Shown here piece after piece: positions 48,954 through 64,000 of a DNA stretch of 64,000 bases. Source of the DNA: Planctomyces sp. SH-PL14 (lineage in GTDB: Bacteria; Planctomycetota; Planctomycetia; Planctomycetales; Planctomycetaceae). The position numbers and the translations under genes are program-made. The stretch's first letter is position 1. Every line of letters begins with the position of its first letter. The DNA lies in contig NZ_CP011270.1 in NCBI RefSeq assembly GCF_001610835.1, positions 3,986,001 to 4,050,000 of the forward strand. Direction: 5' to 3'. The notes beneath the pieces were generated by a model that was given only the letters and a program-made list of their open reading frames with translations, was not told where the DNA came from and searched no databases.

Positions 48954-49982
48954 GTGCGGAAGGTTCTGGTCACCGGCGCGGCAGGATTCATCGGCTTCCA
49001 CGTCGCTCGGGCGTTCCTGCGGCGCGGCGAAGAGGTGATCGGGCTCGACAACCTCAATCCGTACTACTCCGTCGACCTCAAGCGGGACCGGGTCCGTCTC
49101 CTGGAGGACCAGCAGCGCTCGGCGGGGCAGGGCCGTTTCGAGTTCGTCCCGCTCGACCTGGCCGATCAGCCGGGGATGACCCGCCTGTTTGACGAGCGGC
49201 GCTTCGACTGCGTGGTGAACCTCGCCGCGCAGGCCGGGGTGCGGTATTCGCTCGAGAATCCGCAGGCCTACACGTCCAGCAACGTCACCGGGTTTACGAA
49301 CATCCTGGAGGGGTGTCGACGGACCGAGGTCGGCCATCTGGTGTATGCCTCGTCGAGCTCCGTTTATGGCGCGAACACGCGGATGCCGTTCTCAGTCGGA
49401 GACACGGTCGACCATCCGCTGAGCCTCTATGCGGCGACCAAGAAGGCCAACGAGCTGATGGCTCACGCCTACAGCCACCTGTTTCGGCTGCCGACGACGG
49501 GGCTGCGGTTCTTTACGGTCTATGGGCCGTGGGGCCGTCCGGACATGGCGATGTGGCTCTTCACCAGGGCGATCCTGGCGGGAGAGCCGATCCAGGTCTT
49601 CAACGGGGGCCAGATGCGGCGGGACTTTACCTACGTGGACGACATCGTTGAGGCGATTGTCCGAGTGACGGATCGGATCCCGCAGCCTGATCCGGAGTGG
49701 TCTGGCGCCGATCCCGATCCGGCGACGAGTTCCGCGCCGTACCGGCTTTACAACATCGGGAACAATCGTCCTGTCGAGCTGGGGTACGTGATCGAGACGC
49801 TGGAAGCGTGTCTGGGTCGGAAGGCGATTCGGAACCTGTTGCCGATGCAGGCGGGGGATGTTCCGGAGACGTGTGCGGATGTGGATGATCTGATGCGGGA
49901 TGTCGGGTTTCGTCCGGACACGCCGATTGAGGTGGGCATCGCGCGGTTTGTGGAGTGGTATCGCGAGTACCACAAAGTCTGA
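48954..49982 (+). CDS. NAD-dependent nucleotide-sugar epimerase (UDP-glucuronate 4-epimerase-like)
   Basis: 342 residues of the extended SDR family. The NAD motif [11 protein letters not shown] is near residue 8 and the catalytic SSSSVYG and YAATKKANE (Tyr-Lys) pair around 130-155. [16 protein letters not shown] after the first strand and [17 protein letters not shown] are typical of UDP-glucuronate/UDP-galacturonate 4-epimerases. It would supply sugars for surface polysaccharide. The start is GTG, with a GGAG-type box upstream. It is divergent from ruvB. Confidence 0.92.
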
Positions 49983-50003
49983 GTCTCGGATCGCACCCCA
50001 TCA

Positions 50004-50330
50004 CCGGGTCCAGGGGCACCCTGGTGGGGAGTGCAGAGGGGCCTGTGTTGTTTTTCCGGCCCTTTGCCCGCCGGAGGCCTGGCCGTCGAGGGATGTCTGA
50101 AGGAAAGCGTGTCCAAGCGCGGACAATGTGTCGGATGCCCCCTCACCTAAGACGCGGGGAGCGCGAAGCGAGCGGGGAGTCCTCAACGCCGGTCCCACTA
50201 AGCGGACGTCCGTTACTTACAGCGGTTCCTCATGGAAGCGCCTCCGGCGGCAAGGGGGTGAGACCCCCTTGACCCCAGGCTGCCGTCGCACGTTGGGTTT
50301 GAGGTGTCATGGCCGTGCCGGCAAGAACGT
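50004..50330 (+). repeat. Dispersed structured repeat, copy 12
   Basis: Forward full copy between convergent genes. Its left hairpin has the alternative CTGTGTTGTTTT-type loop; its right hairpin has GGGGG-TGAGA-CCCCC. Confidence 0.85.
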
Positions 50331-53931: not shown

Positions 53932-54200
53932 CACGTCGTTGCCGGCACAGCGCTGTCAGCTCAAACCCAACGTGCGACGGCAGCTGGGGTCAAGGGGGTC
54001 ACCCCTTGCCGCCGGAGGCGCTTCCATGAGGAACCGTGGGACACAACGGACGTCCCCTTTGTACTCCACGCGGGTTGGTGTGGGGGCATCCGGCACGTTG
54101 TCCGCGCTTGGACAAGTGATCCTTCAGACATCTCTCGACGGCCAGGCCTCCGGCGGGCAGGGGGTGGCCCCTGCACGCCACCAGGGCCAGCCCTGGACCC
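53932..54200 (-). repeat. Dispersed structured repeat, copy 13 (internal deletion)
   Basis: Reverse copy between convergent genes. About 50 bases of the central region found in other copies are missing, while the terminal hairpins are kept. Confidence 0.8.
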
Positions 54201-54289
54201 GGCTCTGACGGCGCGTGGGTTGTGCTCTGAGCGTGTCGCCGTGGCACCGTATCAAGACGGCACCCCGCAACCTCATTGCCTGACGCTGA

Positions 54290-56516: not shown

Positions 56517-56686
56517 ACGGGAGAGCGATGCTTCGGTTCTCGCCGTTCGGTCGATTCGATCGGAAGGCCGCTCCTGGGCACCCCAGGAGCGAAGGTGGTG
56601 CTGGCAGAACGTCGCGTGAGCGATTGTCCGCGGCTGCGGACCGTAGCTCACGCCGGACAAGACTGGCGAAGCATCGCCTCTCCCGT
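56517..56686 (+). ncRNA. Candidate retron-type msr-msd RNA
   Basis: GGGAGAGCGATGCTTCGG at 56519-56536 pairs with 56667-56684, extended outward by two more pairs, giving a 19-bp helix with one bulge. The enclosed 131 bases hold a hairpin at 56546-56565, the perfect 9-bp hairpin 56570-56590 (loop CAC), and a 14-bp interrupted hairpin at 56614-56653. A long basal stem enclosing hairpins, 75 bases before a retron-like RT gene, is the arrangement of retron msr-msd RNAs, where the basal stem is the a1/a2 repeat. No branching G could be assigned. Confidence 0.55.
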
Positions 56687-56706: not shown

Positions 56707-56730
56707 GTCCTCCCCGTGCCGGGGAGGGAC
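56707..56730 (+). other. Hairpin between candidate ncRNA and RT gene
   Basis: TCCCCG-TGC-CGGGGA, flanked by GTCC and GGGAC, forms a 10-bp stem with one bulge, 31 bases before the RT start. No T-run follows, so it is not a normal terminator; it might shape the RT mRNA leader. Confidence 0.5.
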
Positions 56731-56760: not shown

Positions 56761-58155
56761 ATGTCCGCCCGGATGCGATGTGCGATGAGGGCCACGACGT
56801 TGGACGAACCCGAGTTCCGCGAGCGAGTCGTCCTCGACGCCCTGGCCCGCACACTTCTGCCGCTGGCGGATGACGTCTCGGTGGCCGTCCGGGCGGCGCG
56901 GCAGCTTCTGGGCTGGAAGCCGGAGCGATGGTTCCGGACCCTGGTCGCGAACGTCCTGGCCTGGCCGGAGATGCGGGCCGGTCAGATGACGGCCGGTGAA
57001 CTGGCCGCGAGGCTGAGCGGCATCCCTTCCCTGATGGAAGCCCTCGACGAGGGAAAGGGGGTCGTCCTCGATCTTTCGGCGATCCCGCGTCCCCGGATGC
57101 GCCGCAGCCCGGTCGCCGGCATGGGCCCCATCGTCCGGCTGGAGACGGTGGGGGACTGCCTGGACTGGCTCGGTCTGGGCCTCAATGAACTCGACTGGCT
57201 GACCGATCCGAAGGGGTGGCTTCCCGCCGCCGGCCAGTCCCGGCTGGCCCACTATCACTGCCAGTGGATCCCCAAGCCGGCCGGCGGCGTCCGGCTGATC
57301 GAGGCTCCCAAGCGGCGACTCAAGGCGATTCAGCGAAAGATTCATGAGGAGATCCTGCGTCACGTCCCTCCGCACGAGGCGGCCCATGCTTACCGCCCCG
57401 GCCGGTCGATGGTCACGGCCCTGACCCCGCACACCGGGCAGGAGACGGTCTGGCACCTCGACCTGACGAGCTTCTTCTGGTCGATCGGCTCGGGACGCGT
57501 GCGGCGGTTCTTCCGGCGGATCGGATACCCGGAAGGAGTCGCCGGAGTCCTGACCGGACTCTGCACCAGCCGCGTCGCCCCCGGACTGCTGGAACCGGCT
57601 CCCCTGTCGGAGCGGGAGAAGCAGCAGCTCCTGGCGCGGCATCTTCCGCAAGGGGCTCCGACCTCGCCGGCCCTCTCGAACCTGTGCGCCTTCCGGCTCG
57701 ACTGCCGGCTCTCCGCCCTTTCGGCCCGCTACGACGTCCGCTACACGCGATACGCCGATGATCTCGTCTTCTCCTGCGGACCGAAGCTGCGAAGACGCCT
57801 CCCGGGCTTCCGCAACACGGTCCTGGCGATCCTGATCGACGAGGGCTTTCAGATCCGCCGCCGCAAGACCCGCGTCCTGCGCCGCGGCCAACGGCAGCAG
57901 GTGGGGGGACTGATCCTCAACGAGACGCTCAACGTCCCGCGGTCCGAGTACGACACGCTCCGGGCCATCCTGCACGATTGCGGGCGGAACGGCCCGGTCG
58001 TCGCGAACCGTGACCAACACCCGAGTTTTCGCGAGCACCTCCAGGGACGGGTCGCCTGGATCGCCCATGTCTCTCCCGGACGGGGCCGCAAGCTGAAGGA
58101 GATGTTCGAGCGGATCGACTGGTCCGGGTCCGAAGAGCCAACCGGCGCCGGGTGA
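56761..58155 (+). CDS. Retron-like reverse transcriptase with N-terminal extension
   Basis: 464 residues. Residues 1-155 are a helical region of unknown role. From about 160 the RT fold begins: fingers GGVRLIEAPKRRLKAIQRKI, then AAHAYRPGRSMVTALTPH, then HLDLTSFFWSI with the first catalytic Asp, QGAPTSPALSNLCAF, and the catalytic box RYADDL with YADD at 331-334. The thumb has QQVGGLILNETLNVPRSEYDT. Retron RTs carry NAxxH and VTG signatures; here they read TALTPH and VGG, so it is a diverged member or a sister group. No maturase, endonuclease or DGR context is present. The start is ATG 56761, with alternatives at 56773 and 56785. Confidence 0.88.
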   Translation: MSARMRCAMRATTLDEPEFRERVVLDALARTLLPLADDVSVAVRAARQLLGWKPERWFRTLVANVLAWPEMRAGQMTAGELAARLSGIPSLMEALDEGKGVVLDLSAIPRPRMRRSPVAGMGPIVRLETVGDCLDWLGLGLNELDWLTDPKGWLPAAGQSRLAHYHCQWIPKPAGGVRLIEAPKRRLKAIQRKIHEEILRHVPPHEAAHAYRPGRSMVTALTPHTGQETVWHLDLTSFFWSIGSGRVRRFFRRIGYPEGVAGVLTGLCTSRVAPGLLEPAPLSEREKQQLLARHLPQGAPTSPALSNLCAFRLDCRLSALSARYDVRYTRYADDLVFSCGPKLRRRLPGFRNTVLAILIDEGFQIRRRKTRVLRRGQRQQVGGLILNETLNVPRSEYDTLRAILHDCGRNGPVVANRDQHPSFREHLQGRVAWIAHVSPGRGRKLKEMFERIDWSGSEEPTGAG

Positions 58156-58266
58156 CTTCCTTTACAGATGAAGCCGCGGTTCGGCGCCGCCAAGGGAAAA
58201 GAGATCGCCGCCGAGGCTTCCACCGCTACACTCACGCGAGGACTCTTCCTGCGCTCGGAGGCTGTC

Positions 58267-59571
58267 GTGGCGGAAGACGTGTTGGAACGGCAGGGCTGGA
58301 ACACCGCAGCGATCCTGTGGGCCCTGCTCGTCTGGGGAACCCCGGCCGCGCGAAGCGGATACGACGCGATCCCGGACCGCGTGCAGGTCCTGCCGGTGGC
58401 GTTCGTGCCGAAGGACCAGTCGCCCCCCGATCCGGCCGAGACCAAGCTCTTCGGGGAACATCTCCAGATCGCCCGTGCGCGATATCGGGAAATGCTTCAC
58501 GGTGACACGTTCGACTTCGCGCCCGAGCGGCGCCTCAAGGTCGTTCGCGGCCGGCACGATCTCGACCACTACCGTCGCGCCCGGGAACGGGGAGCCCCCG
58601 ATATGGTCGCGGAGCTGCTCGACGAGCTGGAGCTGACGCGGTTCTCGAACCCGTATGTCTTCTGCATCCTGGTCATGAACGCGGAGGACAGCTTTCCCGA
58701 AGGGGGAGGCCGGCCAATCAACGGGGGAGCGAACCTGGGGGGCGGGATGCTCTACATCGCCTCCTTCGAACTGAAGCGCAACGAGCACTTCCAGAGCACG
58801 CTGCAGCATGAGCTCGGGCACAGCTTCGGACTGCCGCATGTCGACGTCTATGGCTACCCGATCCAGGGGACCGACTCGATCATGTCCTACAACCCGGCGC
58901 ATCACAGCCAGGGGCTGCAACCGAGCCCGACGCCGGGAACCCTCATCGCGGAGGACCGTCGCGCCCTGGCGCTGAACGACCGCGTCTTCGCCAAGACGAC
59001 CTTCCGCCCCCTCCGCGACATCCCCGTCGGCGGCGCGATCTCGCCGCGGATCGTACCGCTCGGCCCGATGACGCTGCCGGGGCATCCCGACTTCTATCCG
59101 GTCGTCACGACCGACGCCGGCGAAGAGCTGGGGAGCCGGGCGGTGAACGTCATTCAGGGAGAGATCAAGCCGAGCGCCGGCCCCGGCATCACCTACGACC
59201 CCGGCAACATGTGGCACTCCCGGCCGCTCCCCGGCGGAAAGGCGGTGCTGGAGATCGAGTTCCCGTTCGCCGTTTCCGCCGACGAGCTGGTGATCCACTC
59301 CCAGCACAGCGGGATCGACCATGAGGTCTCGGCGATGAAGCTGGAGCGTCTCGATGGGTCGGGCTCCGCCGCGGCGCTCGCGGACCAGCGGGTCGGCTCG
59401 ATCGAGGAGGCGGTCTCCTTCGAACCGACCGAAAGCCGCCGGTGGCGCCTCACGCTCCGGACCGGCAAGACCCCGTTCCTCGTCCTGCGGGGCCTCGACT
59501 TCCGCCGCAAAGGGAAACCGGTCGTTCCCCGGCTGATCCCCTCTCTCGTGGACGCGGAGTCGCGAAAGTGA
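58267..59571 (+). CDS. Secreted zinc metalloprotease, HExxHxxGxxH type
   Basis: 434 residues. A hydrophobic signal segment near the start (AAILWALLVWGTPAARS) is followed by a catalytic domain with HELGHSFGLPHVD, the metzincin zinc motif, and a Met-turn SIMSYN. The C-terminal 150 residues look like a beta-sandwich. A GGAGG box (58257-58261) five bases before the GTG at 58267 decides the start; an in-frame ATG at 58168 has no ribosome binding site and would bury the signal. It lies 111 bases after the RT gene, same direction. Its predicted export makes it an unlikely intracellular effector. Confidence 0.8.
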   Translation: MAEDVLERQGWNTAAILWALLVWGTPAARSGYDAIPDRVQVLPVAFVPKDQSPPDPAETKLFGEHLQIARARYREMLHGDTFDFAPERRLKVVRGRHDLDHYRRARERGAPDMVAELLDELELTRFSNPYVFCILVMNAEDSFPEGGGRPINGGANLGGGMLYIASFELKRNEHFQSTLQHELGHSFGLPHVDVYGYPIQGTDSIMSYNPAHHSQGLQPSPTPGTLIAEDRRALALNDRVFAKTTFRPLRDIPVGGAISPRIVPLGPMTLPGHPDFYPVVTTDAGEELGSRAVNVIQGEIKPSAGPGITYDPGNMWHSRPLPGGKAVLEIEFPFAVSADELVIHSQHSGIDHEVSAMKLERLDGSGSAAALADQRVGSIEEAVSFEPTESRRWRLTLRTGKTPFLVLRGLDFRRKGKPVVPRLIPSLVDAESRK

Positions 59572-61731: not shown

Positions 61732-64000
61732 CTACGAGAGGTCGCGGATGATCTCCTCGGCGCTGGCGAGCTGCTTCTGGAGGCCGGCGAGGGTCTCCTT
61801 GATGCCATCGACGATGTGGGCCGGGGCCTTGCTGACGAAGCTCTCGTTGTTCAGCTTCGCTTCGCTGCCGGCGATCAGCTTGCGGAGTTTTTCGGCCTCT
61901 TTCTGCTGCCGCTCCAGCTCCGACTTGCGGTCGATGATCCCTTCCAGCGGGACGAAGCCGTCGGCGTCGCCGAGGGAGAAACTGGCCGAGGCGGGGGGCC
62001 GGACGACATCCGCTCCGGCGGCGGCGAGAACCGACTTCGCCAGGTTGTCGAACTGGCTGGCGACGTTCTGCATGTCGCCGGCGACGTCGTTCGACGCGCG
62101 GATCATGAGCTGGAGCTGCGTCGACGGCGGGATGTTGTAGACCGCCCGGACGTTCCGGACGGCGATGATCGTCTCCTGCAGCCGGGAGAAGCGGCGCTCG
62201 AGCGCCTCATCCCGCCAGGTGGCCGGGAAGGGGGGCCACTGGGCGACGATCGCGGCCTCTTCGCCGGCCCGCGGCGCGAGGCCGGCTCCGTCGGCGGTCG
62301 GGAGGCTGCGGGTCGGGGCGATCTCGTTCAGCCGGTGCCAGAGCTCTTCACAGAGGAACGGCGTGAAGGGCTGGAGCAGCCGGACGAGCGAATCGAGGAC
62401 CGTCAGCAGGACCCGCTGCGCGACGGCGCGAGTCTCGTTCTGCGTTTCCCCCTCGGCCTTCCGCAGCCGGGGCTTGATCATCTCCAGGTACCAGTCGCAG
62501 AACTCGTTCCACGTGAACTCGCGGATGGCGCGGGTCGCGGCGTCGAGCTGGTAGCGGGAGAGGTACTCGTCCATCTCCTTGGCGACCGACGCGAGGCGGC
62601 TCAGGATCCAGCGGTCTTCGAGCTGGAACTGCTCCGGCGCGACCAGGGCCGGGGTGTAGCCCTCCAGGTTCATGATCGCGAAGCGGGCGGCGTTCCAGAG
62701 CTTGTTGCAGAAGTTCCGGCCGTACTCGAACCGCTCGATCGTGATCCGGGCGACCGGGACCCCTTCGTCCGGCGTGTACCACGGCTGGGCGTACTGGGCT
62801 TCCTTCTTGCACTTGGGGCATTTGACCTTCGGCTTGCCCGGCTTGAACTTGAGGTGTTCCTGAAGCTGCGGGATCGCGGCCTGGCAGTGGGGGCACTCGT
62901 AGGAGACCGGCAGGCGGACGTCCTGCGTCTCGCCGGCGAACGAGGCGATCGTGAACCGGGTCCCGTCGCAGCCGTAGCGGTCGATCAATTCGAGCGGGTC
63001 GACCCCGTTCCCCTTGGACTTCGACATCCCCTGCCCGAAGCCGTCGAGGATCTTGGGGTGGACGCAGACGTGCTTGAAGGGGATGTCCCCCATGTTGTAG
63101 AGGCCCGTCAGGACCATCCTGGCGACCCACAGCGTGATGATGTCGCGGGAGGTGACGAGGACGCTGCCGGGGTAGAAGGTTTTCAGAACTTCGTTCTGGG
63201 CTGAAGCCTGAAGGCTGAAGGCGGAAGGTAGAGACGGAGCGGCGTAATCGGGATAGAGGCGCGAGAGGGCGAAGGCGATCCCTTCGGCCGAGGCTTCGGT
63301 CGGGACGTAGTCCTGCTGCAGCCGCGCGGTGATGACGTCGTCCGCGGCCGAGACACCGGTGGCGGCAGCGATGACGAGCCGGCCTTCCTCATGCCCGAGC
63401 GGGACGACCTGGAGCTCATGAGCGAGGGCGGCCGGAACGAGCGCGGCGGCGGTGAGGTCGATCGGCTGATGGATGAGATCGACGAAGCTGGCGAACGGCT
63501 TCTTCGTGGGATCGAAGTTGGCGGCGACCTTCGGCTGCCCCGTGGCGGCCGGGTTCGCGGCGGTGAGTCCCTCGATGGTCTGCTTCGCGACTTCCTTGGG
63601 ATCGAGCGGCGGGTCGTGCTGCAGGTCCGGCCAGCCGAGCGTGGCGTGCGGCCAGAGGGCGGACGAGAACCAGGTATCGAGAACGTCCGGGTCCTGAATA
63701 AACTGGCTCTCCTCCAACTCCTTCTCGTAGTCCAATTCGCCGTCCGCGACGCAAACAATGAGCTTGGAAAAACTGGACTCGCGAACAAGATAGGCTCGGA
63801 CGCGACTGTCGAACTCAGCAGGCAAGCCCAGCCAACCGGAACCCTCCGGCATTGAGATCTCGATGTGCTTGGCGGAAAGCGTCGGCAGATGACTGAGGAC
63901 TGCGTTCTCCGCATCGTTCCTATCAGTGAAGCCGGTGCCCTCCCCGAAATCATAGGCAATGGTCCAGATCGGAATCCGGTGTCCCCACCAGAGCTGCCGG
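61732..64000 (-). CDS. valS: Valyl-tRNA synthetase, 5' part outside window, with inserted GspE-N-like domain
   Basis: Partial class I aminoacyl-tRNA synthetase charging tRNA-Val. Minus-strand codons read RQLWWGHRIPIW at the window edge, later DVLDTWFSSALWP and the signature GMSKSKGNGVDP. Uncommon for ValRS, about 146 residues are inserted between GWP and LKTFYPGSVLV (DNA 63187-63624). Within them, 63250-63486 resemble an MshEN/GspE N-terminal domain (VDLIHQPIDLTAAALVP, HELQVVPLGHEEGRLVIAA). A second insertion with Cys pairs (CPHC, CPKC) follows KMSKS. The anticodon-binding domain and C-terminal coiled coil are normal. The start codon lies beyond the window. Confidence 0.93.
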   Translation of the reverse strand, partial: RQLWWGHRIPIWTIAYDFGEGTGFTDRNDAENAVLSHLPTLSAKHIEISMPEGSGWLGLPAEFDSRVRAYLVRESSFSKLIVCVADGELDYEKELEESQFIQDPDVLDTWFSSALWPHATLGWPDLQHDPPLDPKEVAKQTIEGLTAANPAATGQPKVAANFDPTKKPFASFVDLIHQPIDLTAAALVPAALAHELQVVPLGHEEGRLVIAAATGVSAADDVITARLQQDYVPTEASAEGIAFALSRLYPDYAAPSLPSAFSLQASAQNEVLKTFYPGSVLVTSRDIITLWVARMVLTGLYNMGDIPFKHVCVHPKILDGFGQGMSKSKGNGVDPLELIDRYGCDGTRFTIASFAGETQDVRLPVSYECPHCQAAIPQLQEHLKFKPGKPKVKCPKCKKEAQYAQPWYTPDEGVPVARITIERFEYGRNFCNKLWNAARFAIMNLEGYTPALVAPEQFQLEDRWILSRLASVAKEMDEYLSRYQLDAATRAIREFTWNEFCDWYLEMIKPRLRKAEGETQNETRAVAQRVLLTVLDSLVRLLQPFTPFLCEELWHRLNEIAPTRSLPTADGAGLAPRAGEEAAIVAQWPPFPATWRDEALERRFSRLQETIIAVRNVRAVYNIPPSTQLQLMIRASNDVAGDMQNVASQFDNLAKSVLAAAGADVVRPPASASFSLGDADGFVPLEGIIDRKSELERQQKEAEKLRKLIAGSEAKLNNESFVSKAPAHIVDGIKETLAGLQKQLASAEEIIRDLS
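63201..63228. repeat. Tandem heptamers inside valS
   Basis: Four near-identical 7-mers, CTGAAGC, CTGAAGG, CTGAAGG and CGGAAGG, encoding LPSAFSLQA-like residues at the downstream edge of the valS insertion. Heptamers of this type look like intergenic repeat sequence rather than synthetase coding sequence. Confidence 0.7.

Follow-up and report, generated by a model that had tools for sequence, protein, structure and literature searches.

A probable planctomycete retron with a conserved msr-msd RNA and no conserved effector gene

Architecture of the locus

The window, the whole 64,000-nt stretch of Planctomyces sp. SH-PL14 DNA analysed here, carries on its forward strand a structured RNA element (56517–56686) followed by a reverse transcriptase (RT) gene (56761–58155). 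The extent of the RNA is defined by its fold, by the match of a covariance model from which the window was held out, and by covariation in relatives. Its two ends, a1 (56517–56535) and a2 (56667–56686), form a basal stem of 19 pairs with one bulged C that encloses three hairpins. An earlier reading of the DNA made from the letters alone (the sequence-only reading) had described this stem exactly, together with a perfect 9-bp hairpin at 56570–56590 and a 14-bp interrupted hairpin at 56614–56653. Both are present; the first reaches 10 bp in the fold by adding C56569–G56591, and the second consists of 8 + 6 bp. A further hairpin at 56542–56568, enclosed by the outer stem and preceding the 9-bp hairpin, was absent from that reading.

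In retron terms, the hairpin at 56542–56568 is msr hairpin 1, which is found in the minimum free energy (MFE) fold and recurs at the same place, with variable sequence, in relatives. The next, msr hairpin 2 (56569–56591), is the signature hairpin of the group: it reads GGGCACCCC in the window and GGGGNNACCCC in relatives, where it is near-invariant, and forms helix 1 of the covariance model. The msd hairpin (56614–56653) contributes helices 2 and 3, and alignments reveal a conserved motif adjoining a2 (56655–56666; GGACAAGACTGG in the window, CACGAGACTCGG in relatives). In the general retron scheme, reverse transcription is primed from a G at the inner end of a1 (PMC6868368). A G directly follows a1 in the window (G56536) and in aligned relatives (for example CACAA|G in the sister clade), while the surrounding AGC is not strict; by this position rule and the relatives, G56536 is the predicted priming (branch) residue.

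The 170-nt RNA has an MFE of −101.3 kcal/mol, compared with −71.6 ± 4.3 kcal/mol for dinucleotide-preserving shuffles (z = −6.9), and none of 200 such shuffles folds as well. Folding the region was one of the checks that the sequence-only reading had proposed, and its outcome favours that reading. When stems alone were scanned, the window stem was not separable from those in mononucleotide shuffles of this GC-rich region, and it took comparison with relatives to rule out chance. It is the energy of the whole fold and the comparative evidence, not stem length, that single out the window stem.

The RNA precedes the RT gene, as had been claimed, and shares its strand; the claimed gap of 75 bases becomes 74 nt if translation begins at ATG 56761 and 98 nt if it begins at ATG 56785. 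Within this gap is a GC-rich palindrome (56709–56728; CCTCCCCG-TGC-CGGGGAGG), which could be a processing or attenuation hairpin. A search for a sigma-70 consensus promoter recognised none, a result that we count against the retron reading; planctomycete promoters may differ.

The reverse transcriptase

The RT gene (56761–58155, forward strand) encodes 464 aa from its first ATG. Most aligned relatives begin near residue 9, so that ATG 56785 is at least as likely a start as ATG 56761. The open reading frame contains an RVT_1 domain, and the nearest solved structures in the PDB, judged by sequence, are retron RTs. Among PADLOC profiles, RT_other (2e-140) and RT_outgroup (1e-131) clearly outrank the numbered types (RT_XIII, 5e-91), and these two are by far the best PADLOC matches for all 17 window-like RTs. 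Group II intron and DRT models score far below the retron profiles. Judged by these matches, the RT is a member of the retron clade.

The catalytic YADD of motif 5 is intact. Region X reads ALTPH in place of NAxxH and region Y reads VGG in place of VTG, and both departures are counted against the retron reading. Window-like relatives vary at the same positions, and the sister clade is mostly canonical. Two of 16 validated retron RTs depart at each of NAxxH and VTG (PMC6868368), so these motifs are typical of retron RTs but not strictly defining. Most window-like RTs, as their alignment reveals, share a weakly conserved, probably helical N-terminal extension of ~113–120 aa (56785–57123), in place of which the sister clade has a short and different N-terminus. 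The extension has no consistent match in Pfam or the PDB, and a single-sequence structure prediction of the RT gave a mean pLDDT of 36.6, too low to use.

An RT tree separates a window-like group (clade A) from a sister group (clade B) and places the window within a set of 19 clade A rows with 96% SH-aLRT support. One locus, L069, had been a candidate member of the window-like clade and was rejected, since the tree places it with clade B.

Conservation and covariation of the RNA

Upstream of clade A and clade B RTs lies an RNA of ~150–197 nt built on one plan in both clades: the basal stem, a variable hairpin 1, the GGGGNNACCCC hairpin, a single strand, the msd hairpin, a short motif (for example CACGAGACT or CACAGGAT) and a2. 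When aligned by sequence alone, this RNA has compensatory changes at 16 of 25 pairs in clade A without the window and at 23 of 37 pairs in clade B.

We built a covariance model, R1, of the RNA core (without a1 and a2) from 16 relatives, excluding the window. The window RNA scores 62.4 bits (E = 1.3e-11) against R1, whose best match elsewhere in the window, leaving aside the same hairpin on the opposite strand, reaches 14 bits. Over 170 whole genomes of the family, R1 yields 108 matches, 96 of which are followed on the same strand by an RT match 51–799 nt downstream. It also matches directly upstream of RTs of Burkholderia, Dietzia and Tsukamurella, three genera from two other phyla. In 47 matches aligned to the model, 16 of the 20 model pairs in the inner hairpins show compensatory changes (12 of 13 in the msd hairpin), standard pairs make up 98.5% of pair cells, and 240 cells are double changes, compared with 63 in shuffles and 27–41 in slid controls. 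This model-fitted alignment favours its own structure and includes the sequences used to build the model; hence the importance of the sequence-only alignments and the hold-out test. Rfam holds no matching family for this RNA, even in a permissive search with the window, nor does it reveal any group II intron RNA.

The basal arms vary from genome to genome, and we compared their pairing in a swap test, in which a fixed 30-nt segment covering a2 was paired in turn with the 110 nt that precede the core in its own locus and in every other locus. At 27 of 36 loci the own partner outscores every swap; the means are −36.8 kcal/mol for own and −24.3 kcal/mol for swapped pairings, and equally good swaps come partly from close relatives. 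For the window, the own a1/a2 pairing (−36.9 kcal/mol) exceeds all 35 swaps, the best of which reaches −29.6 kcal/mol. The one clear failure is locus L119, whose RT is broken. Covariation of the stem arms in related genomes had been set beforehand as a test of the sequence-only reading and is borne out here; by this comparison, the basal stem is kept by covariation.

These data bear on whether the fold is a chance product of a GC-rich spacer, or the RNA of another RT class such as a group II intron or DGR. The region is indeed GC-rich and long stems alone are not rare in shuffles, but the hold-out match, the linkage to RTs and the covariation speak against chance, and the profile scores together with the absence of group II intron RNA from the Rfam matches speak against another class. 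By the comparative data this explanation is already contradicted, and we give it virtually no credence.

Distribution and gene neighbourhood

Of 170 genomes from the same family, 135 carry RT homologues at E ≤ 1e-40, a count that takes in other retron RTs besides clades A and B. Homologues are also found in other families and classes of the phylum. A query of the genome contigs with the single RT protein returned only one distant relative. Sister clade B is nearly family-wide. Related RTs are carried on plasmids in Burkholderia (46–47% identity), Tsukamurella (43%) and Dietzia (41%). The genome of the window holds one retron of each clade, the present locus (A) and a clade B retron at G000:C1:1587604. 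This second retron (locus L053, G000:C1:1581600–1594600) has the canonical NAxxH and VTG motifs and is preceded by an RNA core of its own (L053:5461–5568).

The locus might be a decayed retron, in which RNA and RT are still recognisable and RT-DNA is no longer made. The altered region X and VTG would fit such decay, as would the deviation of the window hairpin 2 from the GGGGNNACCCC signature and the long end branch of the window RT in the tree (1.09, against a median of 0.51). A relative in decay does exist (L137/L119, G160:C36), in which the RNA core still matches the model, the basal arms are unpaired and the RT match is in pieces. In the window, however, the RT frame is open with YADD intact and the a1/a2 pairing is complete, and the same motif positions vary in window-like relatives, so that the altered motifs are a trait of the clade. 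We consider decay of this locus unlikely.

In three species of a related genus (g4), the retron of clade B appears split: the RNA (L134:3672–3775 and L135:3806–3910 on the forward strand, L136:3684–3789 on the reverse strand) lies between sulfotransferase and transporter-like genes with no RT nearby, and around the clade B RT loci of the same genomes (L141, L142 and L143) the RNA model finds no match even with filters off. This arrangement is relevant to another explanation, that the RNA is a structured leader that regulates RT expression only and provides no template for reverse transcription. Its position immediately ahead of the RT, in matching orientation, would suit a leader, and the RT-DNA is so far a prediction. 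A cis-acting leader leaves the separation of RNA and RT gene in this genus unexplained, and the layout beside a retron-clade RT is that of a retron RNA, with a closing stem, msr and msd hairpins and a G after a1. A leader alone is, in our judgement, very improbable.

No neighbouring gene recurs in more than 4 of the 24 window-like loci, and none has a fixed place; a search of the RT for effector domains recognised none. The gene downstream of the RT (58168–59571) was rejected as an effector: its homologues are confined to 4 other genomes of 81, where they lie on contigs without a listed homologous RT. In clade B, a gene of 240–270 aa often follows the RT, and a 267-aa membrane-protein-like gene stands behind many. 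This candidate was likewise rejected as the clade B effector: such genes are nearly universal in the family and frequently lie elsewhere, often far from the RT, and so serve as a synteny marker of a conserved clade B location. We take this conserved location as evidence that clade B is largely vertically inherited. Lacking a conserved effector gene, the group does not fit the numbered, effector-bearing retron types.

Proposed mechanism and relation to known retrons

The structure of the RNA, its covariation, its link with the RT gene and the RT class are established, and we regard it as very probable that the locus is a retron, comprising an RT and an msr-msd RNA closed by an a1/a2 stem, with G56536 as the likely priming base and no conserved effector. 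An msr-msd RNA with a1/a2 as its outer stem is what the sequence-only reading had proposed, partly from the position before the RT gene. The retron-clade RT, the RNA conserved upstream of homologous RTs in many genomes and the covariation support the structural and comparative half of that interpretation; its biochemical half, the transcript and the RT-DNA, we infer.

For transcription, priming, the extent of the RT-DNA and function, the features of the locus suggest the following course. A single transcript would carry the msr-msd RNA and, 74–98 nt further on, the RT gene, and pairing of a1 with a2 would form the basal stem of the RNA. The RT would bind the msr hairpins and prime from the 2′-OH of G56536, just after a1. 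DNA synthesis would begin opposite the base preceding a2, cross the msd hairpin and continue in the direction of hairpin 2. The product would be a branched RNA-DNA with at most ~75 nt of DNA, its predicted template lying between msr hairpin 2 and a2 (~56592–56666, ends uncertain) according to the general retron scheme (PMC6868368). Because the clade has no conserved effector gene, the retron would consist of RT and RNA only, as in the myxobacteria, and any role in defence or otherwise must use the RT N-terminal extension or a partner encoded elsewhere. More speculatively, the retrons may form an ancient domesticated lineage, present almost family-wide and in clade B often at a conserved locus, whose RT-DNA has a cellular role without a toxic effector, distinct from classical anti-phage defence; we raise this idea tentatively and think it somewhat doubtful.

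In how it may work, the locus is most like the myxobacterial retrons, a likeness drawn from their description only (PMC6868368). Mx162/Mxa1, Mx65/Mxa2, Sa163/Sau1 and Ne144/Nex2 have an extended RT N-terminus, as does the window RT, and Mx65 likewise has the region X asparagine substituted (PMC6868368). Myxobacterial retrons are also vertically inherited and very common in their host group, as appears to be the case here (PMC6868368). They differ in host phylum and in RNA length, the Mx162 transcript measuring 241 nt and the window RNA 170 nt. The PADLOC classes RT_other and RT_outgroup share the RT profiles with our locus, yet these profiles have no assigned type and no RNA in Rfam. Ec86 (Eco1, type II-A), among the closest solved RT structures by sequence, has the same msr-msd-a1/a2 layout, whereas the window clade has no recurring effector gene, an extended RT N-terminus and altered NAxxH and VTG motifs.

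We found no description of planctomycete retrons in the literature searched. What deserves attention is the RNA family, the fact that it spans three phyla, and the near family-wide presence without an effector. Retrons that databases list only as 'other' now have an RNA family, found in three or more phyla, and a covariance model that detects it in whole genomes. The planctomycete family retains an effector-less retron group across most of its genera, and the host role of such retrons becomes testable by deletion outside myxobacteria. The RT/RNA pairs are also candidates for RT-DNA production.

Other features of the window

Similar intergenic stretches (GGCCAGGCCTCCGGCGGGCAAGGGG-like) occur at 49950–50250 and 53940–54250 and upstream of the RNA in L053, and look like a dispersed repeat of this genome. 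On the reverse strand, 61732–63999 holds an aminoacyl-tRNA synthetase-like open reading frame, valyl-type by eye, within which a segment (PFASFVDLIHQPIDLTAAALVPAALAHELQVVPLGHEEGRLVIAAA) resembles an inserted foreign domain, possibly of the sort found at the N terminus of type II secretion ATPases.
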